Assembly: GCA_014706295.1 (NCBI GenBank)
Contig: JACSVZ010000007.1
Location: 44,344,975-44,408,974 of the forward strand
Source: Lycocorax pyrrhopterus obiensis
Taxonomy: Eukaryota; Chordata; Aves; Passeriformes; Paradisaeidae
Length of the DNA stretch: 64,000 nucleotides
Reading direction: 5' to 3'
A program made the translations under genes and the position numbers. Under the pieces are notes generated by a model. It did not search any database. It saw only the letters and a program-made list of their open reading frames with translations, and was not told the origin of the DNA. Shown piece after piece: positions 9,166 to 63,213 of the stretch. Every line of letters starts with the position of its first letter. Position 1 is the first letter of the stretch.

Positions 9166-9360
9166 GCACGTGTCCATGGCCTGTTACTCTGATCCCAAAC
9201 TGTCCTATGCATTGTGCTGCCCACAGCTGTTGGGCATGGACATGGACACACTGACCTGTGGGCCACCCGCACCCCTGGGACACGGGCAGACACCAAGAGA
9301 TCTACTGCTGGTGCAGAGTGCACCAGGGACACACCCACTCATCATGCGAGCTTGCTATGC

Positions 9361-9366
9361 TTTATT
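9361..9366 (-). terminator. AATAAA polyadenylation signal of the protamine-like gene
   Basis: Plus-strand TTTATT is AATAAA on the minus strand, 54 bases past the stop codon at 9421-9423. A short 3' UTR of this kind fits a small testis-type single-exon gene. A transcript end would be expected about 10-30 bases further, near 9335-9350. Confidence 0.65.
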
Positions 9367-9420
9367 GTTGGAGCCAGGCCCATGTGGTGGCTGGTCTTCT
9401 CAGGGCTCTGGCTCTAAAAC

Positions 9421-9666
9421 TCAAAGGTTGTCTACCGGCTCATTGAACTCATTCGCCTCCTCCGGCTCATCCGGCTCCTCTTCTTCGCGGCGTCTGCGTC
9501 TCTTGAGGGGCCGGTGCTTGATGATTGGGCCGTGCTCTGCACGTCGGCCCCTTGGCCGCGTGCTGCGGCGGCGAGAGCGGCTGTGGCCAGTGCGCCGTGT
9601 CTTCCGCAGGTACTGGCGCCGGCTCCTGCTCCTGTGCCCTCTGGCCCGCCGGTTGTAGCCAGCCAT
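9421..9666 (-). CDS. Protamine-like / sperm nuclear basic protein candidate
   Basis: An 81-residue protein from a complete single-exon gene. Residues 1-60 are strongly basic, with 24 Arg and 3 Lys. They include two SR/RS clusters (residues 12-17 and 29-34), which would be candidate SR-kinase sites, and an Arg run at 56-60. Residues 61-81 form an acidic Pro/Glu tail starting with four Glu; there are 12 acidic residues overall. There is no cysteine. The opening (Met-Ala-x-Tyr-x-Arg-Arg-x-Arg, then Arg-Ser-Arg-Ser-Arg-Arg) resembles chicken protamine (galline), which is also cysteine-free, intronless and about 60 residues long. If the reading is right, the protein would compact DNA in spermatid nuclei, and the acidic tail could be a removable or chaperone-like segment; both are inference. 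The start is supported by context AGCACCATGG and a TATA box 38 bases upstream. The frame is GC- and CpG-rich, unlike its AT-rich surroundings. Alternatives are a transition protein, a divergent or decaying protamine paralogue, or a chance Arg-rich frame, the last made unlikely by the promoter and polyA signals. Confidence 0.7.
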   Translation of the reverse strand: MAGYNRRARGHRSRSRRQYLRKTRRTGHSRSRRRSTRPRGRRAEHGPIIKHRPLKRRRRREEEEPDEPEEANEFNEPVDNL

Positions 9667-9780
9667 GGTGCTGCTCGCTGAGTGCTGTGGGTGGCTGCCC
9701 TGCTTTTATAGGGGTGCCAGGCTGGAGCCCTTTGTGATGCAAGCGCTTTACAGAGCCAACCTCACCAGTGGTGTCACAAT
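9667..9780 (-). promoter_or_regulatory. TATA promoter of the protamine-like gene
   Basis: On the minus strand TATAAAA lies at 9710-9704. A start site 25-32 bases downstream would give a 5' UTR of only about 10-20 bases before the ATG at 9666. Upstream are a TTGCATCA element (9742-9735; TGATGCAA on the other strand, of the CREB/ATF-C/EBP composite type) and a TGACA half-site (9772-9776). Mammalian protamine promoters also combine a TATA box with CRE-like sites bound by CREM. The TATA box is clear; the CRE-like sites are only suggestive. Confidence 0.6.
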
Positions 9781-10029
9781 GGCTGCATGGCAATACTCCA
9801 TGGCTACTGCTCAACCCCATGGCCACATGGAGTGGGCAGCTGCCCTGTGCCTAGAGGGACATTGCTTCACTACCACCATGATCTGGCAGGCCTGCTGGAC
9901 ACTGTCTTGACATGGGAGACCTAGGAGGGCTGGCTGGGCTGACCAGCAGTGCAGGCGATGTGGTGGGAGGAGGCAGCACAGAGGCAGATGAGCCCATTGC
10001 GGCATTGGTGCTGGTAGCAATGATGGCGT
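9781..10029. other. Upstream flank of the protamine-like gene
   Basis: GC-rich sequence with no recognised repeat core. It may include a diverged 5' portion of the LTR recognised from 10030, but I could not align it with confidence. Confidence 0.4.
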
Positions 10030-10197
10030 TGCCAGCTTTGCTTGCATGTGTGGCTTTTGATTTCCCTGGTAAATTGGCTTTTATCTTGAGCCACAATTTT
10101 ATCTGTCTTTGCTCCTCCAGTTCTCTCCCCCAGCAAGCTGGTGGGGAGAGTGAGCCCCTGCGTGGCTCTTTGTTTCTGGCTGTGGTTAAAGCATTAC
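10030..10197 (+). mobile_element. Endogenous retrovirus LTR fragment, 3' part
   Basis: Matches the 3' third of the LTR at 25071-25663. Both contain 'tttgcttg', a run of 'ttttatctt' words, a 'cc(c)agt/agc' block, 'gagtgag' followed by a 'ctgc-tgg-' word, and an ending of the type 'ctggctgtgg-taaa-ca'. The end near 10197 agrees with the LTR terminus. Together with 9063-9165 it forms an inverted pair around the protamine-like gene. Confidence 0.75.
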
Positions 10198-11133: not shown

Positions 11134-11830
11134 ATGAGATTGAGATCTCTCTTGACAGTATTTAAGGATCTTGGGAATTTTGAAAGGTCCTAGTTGACTG
11201 GAAGTTGGCTAACATTGTCACAGTTTTCAAAAAGGGCTATAAGGATAACCCTGGACATTACAGGCCTGTTAGTCTGACTTCAGTGCCTGGTAAGTTTATG
11301 GAGAAGATTATTCTGGGAGTTAATGAAAAACATCTGAAGGACAACACAGTCATCAGTCACAGCCAGCATGGTTTCATAAAGGTAAAGTCTGCTTATCAGG
11401 ACTTTCATTTTTCTTTTATGGCAAAGTAACCCACCTAGTTGATAAATGGAAGGCAGTTGATGCTATCTTTTGAGATTTCAGTACAGCTTTTGATACTGTC
11501 TCTCACAGGATCCTTCTGGATAAAATATCCAGCACACAGCTGGATAAACACATCATGTGATGTGTGAGCAGCTGGATCATGGGTTGGGCACAAAGGGTTG
11601 TAGTGAACGGGGTGGCATCAGACTGGGGACCTGTCACTAATGGGGTTCCGCAGGGCTCCATGCTGGGTCCTGTGCTCTTCAACATCTTCATAAATGTCTT
11701 GGACTCAAGACTCGGGATCCTAAGCAAGTTTGCAGATGATACAAAACTGGGAGGAGCTGTTTACTCCCTTGAAGGCAGGGAGGCCCCACAGAGAGACCTC
11801 GACAAATTAGAGGTCTGGGCAGTCACTAAA
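11134..11830 (+). pseudogene. CR1 LINE reverse-transcriptase remnant (ORF2)
   Basis: Degraded non-LTR retrotransposon reverse transcriptase. Frame one (from about 11205) holds the CR1 block with VFKKG, NPGHYRPVSLTSVPGKFMEKII and SQHGF. After a frame shift and stops, a second frame carries TAFDTVSH (about 11480; motif A with the catalytic Asp), [17 protein letters not shown] (motif B region, about 11645) and FADDTKL (about 11730; the catalytic Asp pair). Similarity stops near 11830, so the rest of ORF2 and the 3' UTR with its tail repeat are missing. It is inactive and old, and probably continuous in origin with the fragment at 8795-8864. Confidence 0.9.
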
Positions 11831-14531
11831 ACTGAATCATCACAAGGGTGATGGAAAGAGTTCTGTTATTAGGAACATGTATTTATTTTAATTCTGACCT
11901 TATCCTTGTTTTTTATTTCACAGTGTTGATGAACAATCAGCTAATTCTTGATATGCTTACTGAAAATTTTTCAATTCTCTTTCTTAAAAATGGCTCTATG
12001 ATGTTTTCAGTAGGTGTATGTAAATTTAATTTCTTTCAAATAGAGTAAGAACAGAAATGCTGACCAGAAAACATTTCTGGTTTGGTGGTCGGAGGTGGTA
12101 GTTTCCTAATGCTTGGAAACTGGTCTCAATCCAAATCAGTTAGAAAATAGCTGCAAGTGAAAGCATCCAACGTGTTTTTTCGTGGTTTATGTGAAAGGGG
12201 TCATTGGTTTGTGTTTTTTAACAATATCTTGTAACATTAGAAATACTGCCTGTATTACTGTAAATGAGCAGTATAGTTTGTCTCTTGCGTTTCAATAAGA
12301 TTGAAAGTTGAAGTTTAGTTAGTGGTACAAAAGGCTTTTGCTCCAAGAGCAGTAAGTGATATCAACAAGTATGTGATGTCCCAGTAGCCTTTCATAATTT
12401 CCCCAAGGTGTTTGTACCATCTAGTGTCGATGTAGACTTAGTGGGGCATATACCCTGTAGTAGAAAATGTTGTTTTCATTTGCAGACCAGCTAGCATTCT
12501 GAGCAGGGGAACAGGGGCCAAATGGCCTGTGGGAACTAAACTTTTCTCACAGAGCTGTAAATTCTGTCAGCTGGGAAGAAGAACAGAGAGAATTCTGGCT
12601 CCTCATTCTCGGAGATAGCTCTCATTTTGCCAAAGTCAGCATACTAAACCAGACCTGTCCCTAACGTTAGCTCATTTAGCTTTTATACATTTCATATATT
12701 TGCTGCATAAACCCTTTCATTATTTGTACTGGTTTTACTTGAATTCTTTTATTGGAGAGTCTGTGAATCCCATTCAGGACTAAGGCAGGGTATAGAAAGG
12801 CTCCCAGTCAATTTAATGCGATCAAAATGGAAAAAGACATATAATAAGTTTTGAAGAATATTAGATGTACTAGTAAATACCTGAAATAAAACACTGCTTT
12901 ATGATTGATAATGAATATTGCTGATATATTTAATTAATGCTGTGACCTCGACAATCTTTTTGGAGACTCAGACTTGAAGAGAGCAAAGGATTGAATTTAA
13001 AGGGTGTTCTCGTTATCAGTCTGGGATTGGTTTCTATTGCTACTTTCCATGTCATAGTTTTCATAGTTTATATTAATCTAGATGTTATTCTATCTAGGTG
13101 TAATTATATTCATATCTAGATGTCGATATTCATATCTAGAGGTAATTACAGGGCTTTTTTCTGTACTTCAGACAACGGTGGTGAAAATATTGATTTGTTT
13201 ATGATTTCATATTCTGTGGAGTAAAGTTGCTCTTAAGAATGACTGCTGAAATAATTCTCTGCAGCTGTAACTTTTGTGTTGTGCAGCTAATCAGAAATGT
13301 GTTAAATAATTTACTACAGCTAATACTAATAAATACTGAGAAATTACTAATATCTCTCTCATCTACAGTTGCATAACCCCCTTGTCACTGTGGGACCTAG
13401 GCAGTTGCAGCTACTCTGTTACTTTCACATATACATTCTTACCTGCATCATGTCTTCCTCGTGTAGATATTTCAGTATTTTCCATGTAATTTATTGCCTT
13501 CTTCCTTCTTTTTCAGTTACAGGTTGGTTAGAATGTATTTGTTGCACTAATGCTTCATTACATGCATATATTCATTTCTGTAAAATACCTTCTAAGTAAA
13601 GGATACTTTAAAAATATTTCAGTATAAGTAATGTATCTCTTAGCATACCTTAGGATGTGATATCCAATAGTTAATTATTCTGCAACTCTGCAATGAGGTG
13701 AAAGGCTGTCTGCGTGTGACTTATTAATACTGTCTGTTCATTCTGTCTCAGTTCTACTATGAGCAATTTCACTCTTTCAGATACTATTCCTCATTTTAAA
13801 GCTTATTTATCTCAGCTCAACTTTGCTTATTTTGCAAGTAGCAGCGAGCAGATTAATAAATTGCATCACTTTTGTAGGAACCTGATACTTTGAATCATTA
13901 TTTTTGGTGGTTGTTGTATACTTAAAACATGACGCTAGGAGACTGGCTTAGAGTCATCTCTGAAATGTTTCTCGTGTACTATAAGCTAGCAGTTTTTTAT
14001 GGCAAGACCTGGCAAAGGTTGACTTCCAGACCAATCAGAGTGATGTCTTAAAGCACAATAGTGCAACCTGAACATAACAATGCATCTGAATCAGCTGCTG
14101 CATATGAGATTCTTCAGCTGTTATTTAACAGTTTGAAAATAGAGGGGAACATGGTATTGGCAAAAAAGATACATTTCAGAAAGATTATTAATAATGGCAC
14201 ATAGGATATTTATCCAAAGTGCCAGCAAAATGATCAGCTGGGTAATGGTGTTGACGCTTTTTCCTACGAAAGAACATAGAAATCAGTGAAATTTGAAGGG
14301 AAATAAGAATGAACTGTAATAACTTTTCTAATAATCTGTAGTGGAGAATTTTGCATCTTCTTTCAAAAATACCTCAAAATGTTCATGGATATTAAGAGAG
14401 TTTAGTACTAAGTGTGTTTTCCAGTAGTATGCATCACTTGAAGTGCTACAAAGAAGACAAAAGCACTGAAATCTCTAAGCATCTCACAGAGGATTTTAGA
14501 TGAGGATTTGAACTAAAAACTGAGAATGTCT
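11831..14531. other. Unique AT-rich DNA, no gene recognised
   Basis: No exon or RNA gene recognised. It contains the small tandem repeat at 13078-13150. Confidence 0.55.
13078..13150. repeat. Degenerate 20-bp tandem repeat around TCTAGA
   Basis: The 15-mer ATATTCATATCTAGA occurs exactly at 13106-13120 and 13126-13140, a 20-bp period. Diverged units containing 'atctag' precede it from about 13078. 'ggtaatta' or 'tgtaatta' words follow two of the units. Confidence 0.6.
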
Positions 14532-25070: not shown

Positions 25071-25663
25071 TACTGGTTTTGGCTGGGGTAGAATTAATTG
25101 TCTTCACAGTGGCTGGTATGGGCCTGTGTTTTGGATTATTCTGAGCACAGGGTTGATGATACAGAGATGTTTTTGTTGTTGCTGAGCCGGGCTTGCACAG
25201 AGCCAAGGCCTTTTCTGCTTTTCATACTGCCATGCTGGTGAGGAAGTTGGGGGTACCTGAGAGGCTGGGAAGAGACACAGCTGGGACAGGTGACCCAAAC
25301 TGACCAAAGGGATATTCCAGACCCTGTGACATCATGCTCAGTATAGAAAGTGGGGGGAAGGAGGAGGAGGGGAGGGATATTTGGAGTGATGGTGTTTGTC
25401 TTCCCAAGTCACGGTTACATGTGATGGGGCCCTGCTGTCCTGGAGATGGTTGAACACCTGCCTGCCCATGGGAATCAGTGAATTAATTCCTTGTTTTGCT
25501 TTGCTTGTGGGCATGGCATTTGCTTTTCCTAATAAACTGTTTTTATCTTCACTCATGGGTTCTCCAGCTTTTACCCTTCTGATTCTATCCCCAGTCACTC
25601 TGGTGAGGGAGGGAGTGAGTGGCTGCCTGGGACTTGGCTACTGGCTGTGGGTAAACCATGAGA
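25071..25663 (+). mobile_element. Near-complete endogenous retrovirus LTR (likely solo)
   Basis: It begins with the block 'ctggttttggctggggtag' and runs for about 590 bp to 'ctggctgtgggtaaaccat', both typical of a widespread bird LTR family (the exact subfamily is not assigned; I suspect ERVL-type). An AATAAA polyadenylation signal lies at 25531-25536. No retroviral coding motif is seen on either side, so it is probably a solo LTR left by recombination. The 5' end of the same family recurs at 63879-64000, and 3' pieces lie around the protamine-like gene. The expected terminal TG is changed to TA, and I could not identify a convincing target-site duplication. Confidence 0.85.
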
Positions 25664-28600
25664 ACCTCCCTCCACAATCATCTAGTAATTCTGGTAACTC
25701 ATAAAGTTTTATGTACTTGGTAAACCAGCTTAACTTGCCATAGACTCTGCCAAGACTAAAAAAACATCTTTGTCCAACCCAGAGTTCATAAAGATAAAAA
25801 TGAGAGAATAACATGTCGTCTTGCACATAGAAGTGTTTCTGCAGCTGCGGGTTATTTTCTGTGAGGCTGAGAACTCCTAGGTGACTAAATGTTAACAACA
25901 CAGTGTACAGCATCCATTATATGGGAGTAAACACATAGTACAAAGTCAGCCTTCTCAGGCTACAGCTCAATGGTGTCCCTACAAAGACTGCATGTGTTAA
26001 AACAGCTAATGATAGCAGCAGCTCCTTCTTAACATAAAAAGAAACAAACCAAGGAATAAAAATTTAGGGGAAAAATAAAAAAATAATTGCAAATACTATA
26101 AAAAGACTTTTTTTTCCCCAACACTATTATTACTGAAAGTACTTTTAACCTAATCAAAATGTCTTTCATCTCAAGTGACAAAGTTGGTCCAGTAACTGTT
26201 AAACTCATGTTTTTTAGACACTACATGGTGTCCCTAGATACAATGGGCTGCAAATTTACAACCATGAAAAGGCAGATCAGTGAAACTGAATGTGGGTTGT
26301 ACATCTCATTTATTTTTCATTATTGATGCGGGATTTTTTTTTTTTTTTGGTATGACTCCATTTGCCTCTGCGGCAGTAAAATGAAAATTGTCAATTTAAT
26401 GGCTGACACTTGTTTTGCTTAAGATTTCTCAGTCTTGTACATGACTAATACTGGGTTTCTAGTGCTGTAGAGAAAATTTTTGATGCAGATAAATTGATGC
26501 CCTTCAGGGAAAGTTTTAGTGGTCTTTAGCAGTGAGCTATTACTCATGCTTGGTAATCACAGGTGCACTTTAAGGTTTATAGAACTGCATTTTGATTTTG
26601 TAAAGCTTATGCTTTTTACTAGCATACCCTTTTCATTTTTGATTTAAAGAAAATAAATGCTTACTACCACACTCTTGTGCTATAGAAAGCTTACCAGTAT
26701 AAATGGCCTCTGCTTCTCCATCTGACAGGATGAATCTGCTGTGCTTCAAGTGCATTGGAAACTCTCCCTATGGGCTTAGAGAAAAGAGGGATTTGGTGTC
26801 TTTCTTATGCAAATAAAGGGTAGAAACAGTTGTTTTGTGTTGCAAAAACTCAAGGCACTACAGGGATTTGCATTTTTTCATTTAAGTGTGTTTTGATTAC
26901 TCTAGTCCCCAAACCCCTCTCCTTAAAAATGTGAAGTCGACATAAATATTACTGAGATAAAGAAAAACCCTTAATGCTGGAAGCTCACAAGGCCAGACTC
27001 TCTGCATGGTTATCAGTGTTATCAGTCAATAGCTGTACAGACTTGCTTTGACTGGGGTTCAGTTCATGCCAATCTTTTCTTTGCGAAAGCCCTTTGTGTT
27101 ATAGAAGTCCTGAGACTTGTAACTGCCCCAGAAAAAAACTCCACCAATGGCCTGGAAACACACTCTCAGGTTGGACTACAGGCTCTTGGCATTTCGCTCC
27201 AAGCCCTTCACAGACAATCATTTTCTGGACGCAGCTATGGATGTGGAAGAAGGTACTGACTCATCTGTGCTCCATTGCTCTAGTATTTCTGATGATGTTT
27301 CTCAGGGCAAGCAACGTTGCAAAGAACACAGCAGGGCCTTCTTAATCTTACTGGAAAAAGAGCCCAGTGTAGGATGTGGACAGGATGCAGCACTGGTGCA
27401 CACAACTGATTCCCCATAGCCACATCTGGTGTAAATCAAGATTCCTTCTCTTCAAATGCTTTTAGCCTAAGGAGACATGATCCATTTTGGAGCTTAACCT
27501 CACTCTGTCAAGTACTCTATCAACTTCCTTTAGAGTAGGTACTGAAAGTGCTCTCTAACCCAGGATCATGCAGGTCAACTAAATCCATGCGGGTCAACTC
27601 AAACCAGGCCCAAGATGACATAAATGGTTTTGTCTGAACAAATTAAGAAGTGTTGAAGGGCTCAGCTGACATCTCTGTAGATGTTTTTGACTCTCAGTAA
27701 AAGGTGGAGCAGAACATGGTAACCATTCCCTTCTACAGTGGCACAGCTGGATCTAGCAGAAAGTGGCTGGCACCTTCAGTTCCTTCTTTTCCAGAGAAGA
27801 AATTTATTTTCTTTCTAATTCTCTGTCTTAGAAGCAAACAGCATTGTTCTAGATTCAGTCCAATGCTTTATTTACAGCAATCAGACAATCACTTTAAGTT
27901 CTTGAGCAACGCTGGGCAAAGATCCTCTTTGCTGTCTTCCTTTCAGCTGGAGTGGAGCAAACACTGTGAGTGTTTATGAGGGCATTTTGATTCAGATCTC
28001 TTCTCAGTAATCCTGAGGCTTAACAGAGAGATCCTGCTTATTAATTCTGCTGTGAAGCACAAACAGGTAAGCAGCAATGTCAGATCTCATTTTACCCTCC
28101 ATAGTTTGTCACTGAACAACTCAGCATCCCTGAATTATTCACAACACAGAGTACCAGTAAGTGTCAAGATCAGTAACCATCAGCCAAGCAAGAAGTCTTG
28201 GCTGGTAGTGGTGATTTTACACTCTCAGGAGAGCCTGAATTTGAGAAAATAGATGTTCTTGCTATTTCATGCTCAGAACAATTCCATAAAAACATAAAAC
28301 ACATGACTGTCTGTCTCTGTGTTTTCAAATTCACCCAATTGTCCCATTTTTAAAATCAAAAGGGTTTTCTTATCCTTGCTAAGATTGTTCTTATTTTAAT
28401 TCTACCCTTGTAAATGCAAAATAATTTCACTGATTGTATTAGAATCCTTTCAGCTTTATGTAGATTCAACAGAAGTTAAGTTCTGGTCCCAGTATTCTCA
28501 TATGCTGTGGATAATTATTGCAAAAACTAAAGTTAGGTCTAAGGACCATAGCCTTCAACTATCTTCAAGATTTGGTGCACAGCTGTAATAGCAGGCCCCT

Positions 28601-41440: not shown

Positions 41441-42536
41441 GTGTCCAATACTGGGGCCAGTATGGTTTAACTTAGTCGTCAATGACTTGGACAAAGGGGC
41501 AGATGCCTCCTCAGCAAGTTCAGTGATGTCACAAAGCTGGGAGGAGTGGCCCATATCCCACAGTTCTGTGCAGCCCTTCAGAAGGACCTTGACAGGTTGG
41601 AGAGATGGGCAGAGAATCACGGAATCATTAGGACTGGAAGGAACCTCTGGAGATTACCTAGTCCAACTCCCCTGCCAAGGTACGGTCACCTAGAGGAGGT
41701 TACACAGGAACTCATCCAGGTGGGTTTTGAATGTCTCCAGGCAGGGAGAATCCACAAGCTCCCTGGGCAGCCTGTTCCATCTGAAATTCAACAAAGGCAA
41801 ATGCAGGGTCCTGCACCTGAGGAAGAATAACCCCATGCACCAGCACAGACTGGGGGCTGACCTGCTTGTAAGCAGCTCTGTACAGAAGGATCGGGGGTGC
41901 TGGTGGACAACAAGCTGTCTGTGAGCCAGCAGTGAGCCCTTCCTTGTGGCCAGGAAGGCCAGTGGTGTCCTGGGCTGCATTAGGAAGAGCACTGCCAGCA
42001 GATCAAGGGAGGCGATCCTGCCCCTCTACTCAGCCCTGGTGAGGCCACATCTGGAGTGCTGTGTCCAGTTCTGGGCTCCTCAGTACAAGACAGACTTGGA
42101 ACTCCTGGAGCAGGTCCAGTGGAGGGCTACAAAGATGATCAAGGGACTGAAGCATCTCTCTCTCGAGGAAAGACTGAGGGACCTGAACCTGTTAAGCCTT
42201 GAAAAGAGGTGACTGAGAGGGGAAGATATCAAGAGGAAGGATCCAGGCTCTTCTCAGTGGTACCAAGCAATACGAAAAGAGGCAACAGGCAGAAACTGAT
42301 ATACAGGAAGTTCCACCTGAACATAAGGAAGAATTTCTTTACTGCACAGGTGACAAAGCACCGGAACAGATGTCCCAGAGAGTTTGTGGAGTCTCCTTCA
42401 CTGGAGAATCTCTTCAAAAACAAGATGTAATCCCGTGTCATGTGCTTTAGGATGACCCAGTTTGAGCAGGGAGGTTGGACCAGTGACCCACAGTGGTCCC
42501 TTCCAACCTTTCCCATTCTGTAATTCTGTGATTCTA
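41441..42536 (+). repeat. CR1 LINE, ORF2 end and 3' UTR, interrupted by a nested CR1
   Basis: It starts in the reverse-transcriptase region after the catalytic core ('ctggggccagtatggttta', FN--VNDLDKG). It continues through 'aagctgggaggagtgg', 'ccttgacaggttggagag', 'ttcaacaaaggcaaatgcag', 'gtcctgggctgcattagga', 'gaggccacatctggagtgc' and 'ctgggctcctcagtacaaga'. It closes with 'tggtcccttccaacc' and an ATTCTGTG-type tail near 42536. With the insert at 41613-41777 removed, the two sides join as in ordinary CR1. The ORF2 part carries several frame disruptions, so it is inactive. It is the longest CR1 in the window. Confidence 0.95.
41613..41777 (-). repeat. Antisense CR1 3' end nested inside another CR1
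   Basis: On the plus strand it reads 'gaatcacggaatcattagg', 'actggaaggaacctctgg', 'tagtccaactcccctgcc', 'ggttttgaatgtctccag' and 'ctccctgggcagcctgttc': the reverse complement of a CR1 3' end of about 165 bp. It interrupts the host CR1 between 'gagatgggcag' and 'catctgaaattcaacaaag', which are adjacent in ordinary CR1. The insertion is therefore younger than its host. Confidence 0.9.
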
Positions 42537-55500: not shown

Positions 55501-58500
55501 TATTAAATTAGCTCCCTTTGCTCTGCATTTGGTGTTTATCTTTTTAAATGTCAGAAGGGTATATTATATCTTTAAAAGTTCTCATTTGTGCCTTCCCTAA
55601 AGCTCAGCTGACTTTCAGTTACTGTCTGACATGATGAAACTGGTAAGCATTTTTTGAAATTAAAGTGCACTGTTCCCATTTTCTCAATCTGCTGCTCTCA
55701 ATAGTTTATAAAAACATATATACAGTTAAAATTTGCATTTCAGGTTTTGTGCTTCTAGTTCTTGTCACAGTGACAGTTACTTTGTACTGGTTACTGTTGC
55801 GGCTGTAGCCCCTCACAAAGAAGGAAAAATAGTCATATATTCTTTTGCTGCACATGGTTATCATGGCAAAAAAATGTGTTAATAGTGTGGAAAGTGTGAA
55901 GATTACTGATATAGTGGTTAAGAAACTATACCCTGGAAAAAGAACATCAAACCAGAGTTCATGCTTGTCTTGCTTACCTTTACTCAAAGGTAAGCTGAAA
56001 GCTGTTGTTTGGTCTGATTTTGGCCTGGGTTTCATATAGTCTTAGAGGTGAAATAATACACAGGTTCTGGGGACAACGGCACTTCACATAATTTCTGAGT
56101 TACTGAAAGGTTTCAAAAGCCTTTGCCTGATCTTCTGTGTGCAGCAACAGATTTCCTTATGGTTTTCTGGTGCTATACACCCCAGAGAGTAATTCCTTCT
56201 TCAGGCTTTGACACAAGGGAAACTAAAACCCAACTGAAAATACAAATGATTTGGTTCTGATATGACTCTTATCATGTAAAGATTTTTACCTGTGTTCTGT
56301 CATCTTTCTGAGGTCATAAATACTTGTTCAGTCCTGCCACATTCTACCAAGCAGGTCCCACTGATACGTATGGCATATCATCTACAATTACTCTGTAAAG
56401 TATAAGTTATCTACTTCTGAGAAATAGAATGTTTTCCAATATTTTACGTTCTTTAATCACTTTAGCTGAGTCACTTTCGTATGACTTCAGAGAAGCTTTC
56501 ACAGGCAAAGCTGTTGCCTACAAAAGCACCTTCTTGTCTCTGTTGGCAAAGCTTTTCTTGCTCTGATGTAAGTTGCAAAGTTATAGTAGAACCGTTTAGG
56601 ACAATTACAGCAAAATATCTTTTAGGAATAATGATTTAAGTATTAAAAAAAGAGGAGATGGGAAAAATGCAGCCAAAGGATATAATTCAAGCTAGGTCAA
56701 CTTCTGTGATCCATAACACCATGCTGATGATGCTTTCAACAAAGGAACTAGCAGAGTGGGTTTTATTGCATTTCCTTGACCCATTTTGAAAAAGCTTGCC
56801 CTAAAGCTAAGATACCTAAGCGCATGATAGCTGAATTGACAAAAAAAAAGATCAATTTAAAGTCTTAACTCGAAAGTTTTTCATGTGCTAGAGTTGTGTG
56901 GCCTTTTCTTGAAAAATACTTAAACAAATTCATGAACAAATGAATGGATCTCTTCAGCTAGTCCTGAGTTTTGATATATTAAGCCTTCTTTTGATACATT
57001 AAGCGATATGATGCAGTCATTAATTTTCAAGTATTTATCAAAGTTCTCATACAAAATGATGAGGTAATTTTCTAGTATGAACCAAATTTTACAGACAAAA
57101 TTATGAGAATTCACAGGAAGCTGTTGACACATGAGAAGCTGATGTGTCCCAGGGTTTATAAGCAGGAGTAAGTCATTAGCAAAGTTTTTATAAAGCAATA
57201 TCCTTGGCTAATTAGAACTCTCCTACTTATATTTGCCTGACAAGGGAAGGAAGGAAGAGTAGAATAAAATAAACATCAGTGAAATGAGGAAATTAGAAGA
57301 GCAATTGTTAAAAGTTGTTAATCAAACCATTAAGTAGTTCTTTTTCAAGCAGCACTGGTATTAGGCTGCCCTGTGCTAACTGTGTGTACTGGAGCAGCAC
57401 TAAATATCTTGGATCCAGCCATGAATGTTGGGCCAGGGGGAACATTCATGGATGTGTGGAAACAAGGCTTCACTTAAGCTTGACTCATTGTTTCAGTTAG
57501 TTTCCTTTCTCTATTTATCTGCATTATCTGTTAAGGTCAAATGCCCTCTGTCCATCTGTCTGTCACTGTGGGCAGAGCCAGAAGTGGCACACAGAGCTAG
57601 GCCTCTCCCGGAATTAGCCCATGCAGGGTATGGTCACATGTGGCTGCAGTTTTCTTTTGTTCCTGAAAGCCCTTCTCAGTGAGTGCATTGCAGCATAGTG
57701 CAATGGGCAAACCCTTTGGGTCTGTCAAGGGCTGTCAGACCTTGGCTGAAAAATGACAGTTCCCTTTCTAGACTGTAAGAGCATTAGTGCACTCATAGTC
57801 TCTGCAATGAGAAAGTGAGTACTTTCTCATTGCAGGCCTTTGATGAAGTGCCCTGGCAAAGCAAAGATGGGAGGTGACACCACCTCTAGCTGAGCTCTGA
57901 AATCTGCCATTTATCTGTGCCCTTGCTGCAGGTCACCAGCAAACCTTTCCTCAGGCAATTGACGTGTCACTGATGTTGCACAGGGGCCTCATGCTGGAGT
58001 AGGTACAGAAATCACCTTAGCTTAAAACAGCTTATTTCTGTCTTTTCTTATGACAAGCACTTATTAAGAGCTAATTATTTTGACTGGTTTGAAAAGAGAT
58101 TAATGACTTTCCTTGCTAAGGAGCTCTTCTAAAGTCCACGTATGAAATCCAGTCATTCAGCTAAAATGGACTTTTTTCTACTGAATGAAGTGTAAAGAGA
58201 AAATATGTTTCATGCTCAGAAATATCCAGACATAATTTGTATTTTCTGTGGTGACTCCCTTGATACTGTTCACAGATACTGCGTTTCTCTGTCTCTTCCC
58301 TATATTTTTGCCATAAATTCAGTGTTTGTGAGAAAAGTAAGATAAGCTGCATATGCAGTTCTAGTCTCTCTGTGTGTATGATTCCGTGCCTTATTAATGA
58401 ACTAAGGCAGGACCAAACCTCACCATGGCACTGGTAGTCCCCATCCTGCACACTTTTCTCCAATACGGAAGATTTCTGCTAGATTAAGCAAAGAATGGTT

Positions 58501-61500: not shown

Positions 61501-62879
61501 TATTTTTGGTTTTATCTTTTGTGACTGGGTAATAAGAAAAATTACTGGGAATTCAACCCTCTGTCCTCCTCAGTGTAGTCCCTGAATTTCTGGATGTCTT
61601 TTTAAAAAACCCAGGGTACAGTTGATTCAGTGTTGAGGTGATCACGAGTGTGTCTTCTTCCAGAAGTGCAAGGGAAAGCATAACAGCCCAAACATACAAT
61701 CTGTGTAGAAGTCAAAGATGTATTTTTCAGATTCCATGTCCTTAGCATTGTCCATATTTCCACTGGGAAACACAGCATGTGTGTAGAAGCTCTCCCCTGT
61801 GTACTCTGTCTCATGTGCTCCAGATGTCCCAGACCAACCATGCATGGGCACACAGGCCACATATTGTCTGGATAGACTGACTCTTGATTGCAAGAGTGGT
61901 GAGTCCAGAGTCTGACTCAGGCACTGTGGCCATTTGCCAGGAAAGCCAGCAGATGCCTGCCATAGGTAAAGAGCACACTAAAGCAGGAGTCTGGTCATTT
62001 CAAACCAGTAACACTGGCAGAAGTGCTTGCCTACTGCTGCTCAGGTCAGCGAATTAAAACAAAATTAAATACTACATTTTTCTGCTTTTCTTTCTCTATC
62101 ATGTCCTTTTCTTCACATGCCAAAACTAAAGGAAAATATTTTGTCCATTACCAAAGAAATTTAAACTCTGGATGAACAAACTTGAAGTAAATGTATAATT
62201 TCAAAACTGTCTTTTGCTGTCTTTGTGTCATGAAGAGATAGATCACAAAGTTCCTGTATCTTCTTAGGATGCAAAGAGTTGCTTTTGTACGTTTGCATCC
62301 AAAATAGAGACACTGAAGGCAGCAGACTGGACTGCAGTGCCATCACTGTCCTGACAACACCTTGCCTTTACCTTTCTTGAGTGGCTTCAGTCAGATTTCC
62401 TTGCATCCTTCCCTGTCTGAGTGCCAGGGACTGGGATGAGAACAGCTGCGTAAGACTACATGGGCAGTGAGAGCTGTACAGGATGAGATGCTCAAAAAGG
62501 TTTTCACAAGTGCCCTCTGCCTTCTCCTGTGCTAGTTACTTGGCTGTTTTGTAACTGTTTAGAATTTGTGTGGTGGGAAGGAACATGAGGGATGTGTGTC
62601 AGAGGCAAGAGCAAATGTGCGGAGGTAGCACCAACAAGTCAATTTGGGCACATAAGACAGGAAACTTAACTGCAGTTTTAGCTTCTCTAAATGTAGCTTT
62701 TCTAATGAGGAACCAAATGATTTTTGTAATCACTGTTTTTTCCAGATTCTTTCCTACTCAGCAGTATTTAGAACAGTCTTTGCATTCAATGAAGAGATTT
62801 TATTCTGAAAAAGTAGGCTGTAAATATCTTTTTTGTATCCTCCTCTTTGAAGGATAACTACATGTCAGCTGAAGAGAAA
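52501..62879. other. 10.4 kb of unique AT-rich DNA, no gene recognised
   Basis: No domain-bearing frame or RNA gene is recognised; the longest frame is 109 codons (55706-56035, minus). About 60080-60360 has few simple repeats and contains 'ctattaattgctaattg', so it may be conserved noncoding DNA. A perfect hairpin lies at 57802-57835. Direct copies of 'ttttgata(t/c)attaag' occur at about 56970 and 56990. Confidence 0.5.
57802..57835. repeat. Perfect 15-bp-arm hairpin with 4-base loop
   Basis: CTGCAATGAGAAAGT (57802-57816) is followed by GAGT and then its exact reverse complement (57821-57835). A perfect 15-bp stem on a tetraloop is unlikely by chance. At 34 bases it is too short for an ordinary microRNA precursor. 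Confidence 0.85.
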
Positions 62880-63213
62880 GCCTTTCAGTACCTAAAGGGA
62901 GCTTACAGGAAAGCTGGAGAGGGAAGCTTTACCAGGACATGTAGTGATAGGACGAGGGTGAATGGCTTGAAACTGAAACACAGTAGGTTTAGACGAGATC
63001 TTAGGAAGAAATTTTTTATGGTGTGTGTGGTGAGACACTGGAACAGGCTGCCCAGAGAAGTTGTGGATGCCCCATCCCTGGAAGAGTTTAAGGTCAGACT
63101 GGTTGGGGCTTTAAGCAAGCTGTCTAGTGAAAGGTGTCTTTGCCCATGGCAGGAGGGTTCAAAACAGATGATCCTTAAGGCCCCTTCCATTCCAAATCAT
63201 TCTACGATTGTAT
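62880..63213 (+). repeat. CR1 LINE 3' fragment
   Basis: It contains 'cagtacctaaagggagctta', 'gaaactgaaacacagtagg', 'cttaggaagaaatttttta', 'gagacactggaacaggctgc', 'gatgccccatccctggaaga' and 'agtgaaaggtgtctttgcc'. It ends in a weak ATTCTACGATTGTATG tail. The open frame of 144 codons over it (62847-63281) is a by-product of the repeat. Confidence 0.95.

Follow-up and report, generated by a model that had tools for sequence, protein, structure and literature searches.

I found that the minus strand of the DNA analysed here (the window; 64,000 nucleotides, C1108:44344975-44408974 in a contig of 64.6 Mb) very probably carries a real coding gene, to judge from its sequence. The best reading, which I hold with middling confidence, is a single-copy and probably intronless passerine gene whose product would be a small basic protein of the nucleus, most plausibly of spermatid chromatin. 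The gene is apparently unannotated, and nothing on such a gene was found in open-licence papers. The features are listed below with their window coordinates.

9710-9703, minus strand: TATA box TATAAAAG, read from the sequence
9669-9663, minus strand: start codon context ACCATGG, read from the sequence
9666-9421, minus strand: coding sequence of 81 codons and TGA, from the sequence, its translation and the CpG codon-phase signal
9487-9666, minus strand: Arg-rich region (residues 1-60), from the translation and residue counts; putative DNA-binding part
9424-9486, minus strand: acidic tail (residues 61-81), from the translation and residue counts; putative charge shield
9366-9361, minus strand: poly-A signal AATAAA, read from the sequence
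9342-9321, minus strand: GT-rich stretch in the sequence, putative site of a poly-A downstream element
9176-9658, plus strand: overlapping open reading frame of 160 amino acids
9080-9144 and 10075-10139: inverted copies of an old dispersed repeat flanking the gene, 83% identical over 66 columns

A preliminary description of this locus had claimed a full TATA-to-poly-A structure, and this was borne out: the ATG lies in a strong Kozak context and AATAAA follows the stop codon after 54 bases, as had been stated. The TATA box was also found, but the gap from its end to the ATG is 36 bases, not 38. The surroundings had been called AT-rich, which is true of the window as a whole (39.6% G+C) but not of the unit itself, which lies in a local G+C-rich patch at about 8.9-10.4 kb. 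The GT-rich stretch directly past the poly-A signal and the acidic last quarter of the protein are additions to that description. The gene is called intronless here because the complete ATG-to-stop frame sits between the promoter and the poly-A signal. Transcription would be expected to start near 9680; with a start 30 nt past the TATA box, the 5′ leader would be very short (about 14 nt), and the predicted mRNA would be roughly 330-350 nt long. In the 600 nt upstream, no match to a CRE or an X-box was found, only a single TGTGACA at -112. The right flanking repeat copy (from 10035) also matches 25498-25673 (68%) and L022:305-456 (71%).

The signals were assessed against 314 kb, consisting of 200 kb of left flank, the window and 50 kb of right flank. 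Among the 626 ATG-initiated ORFs of at least 50 amino acids, a TATA motif lies within 80 nt upstream of 19, AATAAA or ATTAAA lies no more than 120 nt downstream of 90, and a Kozak-type context (purine in position -3, G in position +4) surrounds the ATG of 93. Only two have all three, and the other one is a 52-amino-acid frame with 4% Arg. The frame at 9666-9421, described previously as an 81-codon Arg-rich frame, ranks first of the 626 by Arg content (29.6%; the runner-up has 21.9%).

The 81-residue protein contains 24 Arg and, as had been noted, no Cys. All 24 Arg lie in residues 1-60 (40%), together with 3 Lys, a single acidic residue and RS clusters. Residues 61-81 include 9 Glu and 2 Asp, so that 11 of the 21 are acidic. 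Near-repeats (GAGCCGG three times, AATGAG twice) make up the DNA encoding this tail at 9424-9470 (minus strand), and short duplications may have lengthened the tail. The product is probably disordered: the AlphaFold2 prediction made from this one sequence is of low quality and has little secondary structure (mean pLDDT 65.7, pTM 0.17, a lone short helix at residues 14-22), which fits disorder and shows nothing beyond it.

Is the frame under selection? The ORF has a CpG observed/expected ratio of 0.92, in contrast to 0.13 in the 600 nt upstream and 0.24 in the 500 nt downstream. Within its 246 bp lies the most CpG-dense of 15,010 sequence windows outside masked CpG islands, in a ranking where the patch 9200-9850 was left unmasked, although it meets loose CpG-island criteria. 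The retained CpGs are in phase with the codons. At codon positions 1-2, namely in CGN arginine codons, 18 CpGs were observed versus 13.3 expected, whereas at the junction between the third base and the next codon only 2 were observed versus 8.7 expected. This deficit was significant in a shuffle of synonymous codons (P=0.018) and in a shuffle of codon order (P=0.00025). A C to T change at this junction is always synonymous. The ratio of C to T at third bases is 2:6 where G follows and 30:2 at all other sites (Fisher p=1.8e-4). The noncoding flanks, as expected, also showed loss of CpG with T preceding G; thus, the C:T test itself reports decay, and only the contrast with the kept CGN sites supports selection. 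Since CGN CpGs are kept, junction CpGs are lost and the flanks are CpG-poor, selection on the protein in methylated DNA is suggested. I read the pattern as that of methylated DNA which would have decayed save where decay would alter an arginine.

The same 314 kb contains 55 open stretches that reach 60 or more codons and include 10 or more CGN codons; 52 of them overlap CpG islands. The three off islands are the minus frame, the frame antisense to it and an exon of STON2. The ratio of CGN to junction CpGs is 9.0 in the minus frame, as compared with 2.4 in the antisense frame, 2.3 in the STON2 exon and 2.3 in the top island stretch; the minus frame is depleted at junctions, in contrast to the island stretches. 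One observation counts against the coding reading: CpG in the NCG codons of the ORF is not depleted (5 observed, 5.1 expected), in contrast to the STON2 exon (4 observed, 35.9 expected). The near-repeats of the acidic tail might explain why CpG is still present in the NCG codons there.

No relative of the protein was found. Pfam gave no family at E<=1, a PDB sequence search gave a sole match to nucleolar protein 16 that is far from significant (E=6.4), and a set of 5.8 billion proteins gave 7 candidates, none at E<=1. Little was expected of NCBIfam, whose library is bacterial and archaeal and contained no relative, or of the prokaryotic genome_contigs set (591 pattern matches, none confirmed); in viral_contigs, none of 241 pattern matches was confirmed. 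The large protein set does contain bird proteins, as the relatives of STON2 showed when used as a control, and in a phmmer control, decoys with half of their positions randomised still scored about 1e-11 to 1e-12. On the other hand, galline as a control query against the same set had 170 candidates, none at E<=0.1. Since galline was missed too, the absence of relatives is suggestive only; short basic proteins are possibly absent from the set or lost to word filtering. Galline itself matches no Pfam family, and searches of this kind can fail to show bird protamines. A galline search of the bird's own genome gave no candidates, which is uninformative because it was run without a positive control.

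The preliminary description had proposed a galline-type protamine paralogue. The likeness is that both proteins are small, Arg-rich and cysteine-free, with an MA-Y-R-like start and RS dipeptides, and that the unit is apparently intronless, as the galline gene of birds is. However, galline has no acidic tail and a far higher Arg content. In alignments with galline, the observed score was reached by 117 of 1000 composition shuffles of the protein when aligned locally and by 50 of 1000 when aligned globally, so that the similarity barely exceeds what composition would produce. One paper gives the Arg content of protamines as 50-70% (PMC8812575); by that figure, the values here are low, both overall (29.6%) and in residues 1-60 (40%). 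The acidic domain in residues 61-81 also speaks against this proposal, as does the finding of no second copy in protein and DNA searches of the same genome; none of the tests run supports it.

An orthologue of TNP1 in a gene desert was also considered. TNP1 is likewise a small basic nuclear protein and has a few acidic residues near the C-terminus. Its conserved neighbourhood is the IGFBP5-TNS1 region, and the mammalian gene has an intron. Here the neighbour is STON2; the TP1 domain (PF02079) has no match in the 81-residue protein, although human TNP1 used as a positive control scored 6.4e-32; and 783 of 1000 shuffles reached the TNP1 alignment score. The neighbours and the missing TP1 match ruled this candidate out. 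The locus does not correspond to the known site of TNP1 or to that of the mammalian protamine cluster. A protein working in the way proposed below would resemble a transition protein, or a protamine precursor carrying an additional segment, more than a mature protamine. Protamine precursors such as mammalian PRM2 and cephalopod protamines likewise join an Arg-rich DNA-binding part to a less basic or acidic segment, but their cleaved part is N-terminal, whereas the acidic part here is C-terminal.

Given a real coding gene, a role in spermatid chromatin appears evenly balanced or slightly favoured. A TATA promoter with CpG-poor upstream DNA points to tissue-restricted expression, and sperm nuclei typically contain small Arg-rich, RS-containing DNA binders. 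Haploid germ-cell genes include an excess of intronless ones, at 51 of 246 (20%) versus 8% (PMC8254168). On these three points I consider the spermatid role the most likely one. The absence of a CRE or X-box match in the 600 nt upstream and the very short predicted leader count against it. In such a scheme, the TATA promoter would restrict expression to one tissue, most plausibly haploid spermatids, and the basic region (residues 1-60) would bind DNA via phosphate neutralisation. Phosphorylation at the RS clusters would perhaps tune the binding. The acidic tail (residues 61-81) would shield the basic charge, so that binding might be weaker, reversible or chaperoned, or the protein might be handed over.

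The main rival is a nuclear role in RNA binding. The unit would then be a real small nuclear gene with a role other than in sperm chromatin, encoding an SR-like, nucleolar RNA-binding, ribosome-biogenesis or other basic-acidic protein, which I consider possible, though on the unlikely side. RS clusters, blocks of basic and acidic residues, and disorder suit such proteins as well, and the only PDB match, far from significance as it is, is to a nucleolar protein. Yet housekeeping genes of that type tend to be widely conserved and to have promoters in CpG islands, whereas this gene has a TATA box, an upstream CpG ratio of only 0.13 and no relative found among 5.8 billion proteins, in a search that also missed galline.

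It is improbable that the frame has no product and arose by chance in a small patch rich in G+C and CpG. Its length by itself is unimpressive, since dinucleotide shuffling, done 2000 times for each, yielded an ATG frame of at least 81 codons in 93% of cases for the 1401-bp patch and in 25% for the 436-bp unit; the patch also passes loose CpG-island criteria. The Arg composition, however, is striking: a frame of at least 81 codons with at least 29.6% Arg was found in none of the 2000 shuffles of the patch and none of the 2000 of the unit. The TATA, Kozak and poly-A signals that frame the ORF also speak against chance, as does CpG depletion at synonymous junctions, which is absent from island stretches.

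In the bird's own genome (1.104 Gb, 1120 contigs), the unit was found once: the protein search gave one match (E<=10), as did the DNA search (E<=1). There is no A tract at the 3′ side of the unit in the sequence. Since neither an A tract nor a source copy was found, a recent processed retrocopy with a recognisable source was rejected. Stonin-2 (Pfam Stonin2_N, 4.7e-81) is the identity of a large exon lying 151-153 kb to the left of the window. This exon has 701 relatives at E<=1e-10 in the set of 5.8 billion proteins; among the best 120 of the 701, the top named relative is from Struthidea cinerea (99%), and many passerines are at 98%, which makes the source a songbird and possibly a corvoid. 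The Pfam match and the names of these relatives replaced STON1/GTF2A1L, the first candidate for the left flank, with STON2. An exon farther left is presumably GTF2A1, and one between STON2 and the window is presumably the SEL1L C-terminus; Pfam gave no fitting family for either. A CpG island lies at -46.2 to -44.7 kb, with more island-like patches at -44.4 to -43.8 and -34.2 to -33.5 kb. I take the island to be the start of SEL1L, which would place the gene about 54 kb beyond it in a gene-poor stretch. Neither Rfam nor a tRNA scan gave a hit in the window. In a rough exon scan by codon usage, the best recognisable stretches in the window were CR1-like. One, at 11579-11851 (plus strand), is a fragment resembling CR1 LINE reverse transcriptase (Pfam RVT_1, 6.3e-07); two more, at 41925-42206 and 62838-63188 (both plus strand), presumably come from the CR1 reverse transcriptase or its C-terminal part. 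A 44-bp tandem repeat in two copies (79% match) lies at 57021-57107.

A decaying pseudogene, or one exon of a larger spliced gene, is very improbable. The reading comes from a single genome, and the frame is open for 13 further codons upstream of the ATG, so that an upstream splice is conceivable. Against this, the frame is intact without stops, its arginine CpGs are retained, and the TATA box upstream and the poly-A signal downstream are both within 60 bases of it. The scan found no exon-like stretch near the unit, which weighs little because it overlooked most exons of the known genes.

The least probable reading of all is that the true coding frame is the plus-strand frame at 9176-9658, which is longer than the minus frame and has CGN codons at the same places, with third positions common to both. 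Since the antisense frame shares third positions, the CpG statistic alone cannot pick the strand. The minus strand was chosen because CpG retention does not extend past the minus-strand stop codon; because the half of the plus frame outside the overlap (9176-9418) has no CGN retention, with 3 CpGs and 1 observed in the CGN phase versus 6.2 expected; and because the TATA box, the Kozak context and AATAAA are all on the minus strand. When the overlapping half is read in the plus frame, moreover, the third-base C:T ratio shows no drop before G (p=0.41).

The approach is useful in itself: the retention of CpG in arginine codons, together with its loss at synonymous junctions, pointed to a coding frame from one genome. 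Sperm nuclear basic proteins are short, fast-evolving and easily missed by annotation. As a more tentative and rather unlikely extension of the spermatid reading, the protein may be a hitherto unrecognised transition-type protein of songbird spermatid chromatin, which binds DNA through its basic part and brings its own acidic shield. The gene resembles mammalian TNP1 neither in profile nor in neighbourhood and would therefore be an independent solution. Direct exchange of histones for protamine is reported for birds (PMC13419593), which makes a transition-type songbird protein worth testing. If the gene is expressed in spermatids, it would provide a test of whether birds pass from histones to protamine without an intermediate. 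The gene may also have a connection with the unusual sperm head of passerines, the shape of which sets this group apart (PMC11186999).
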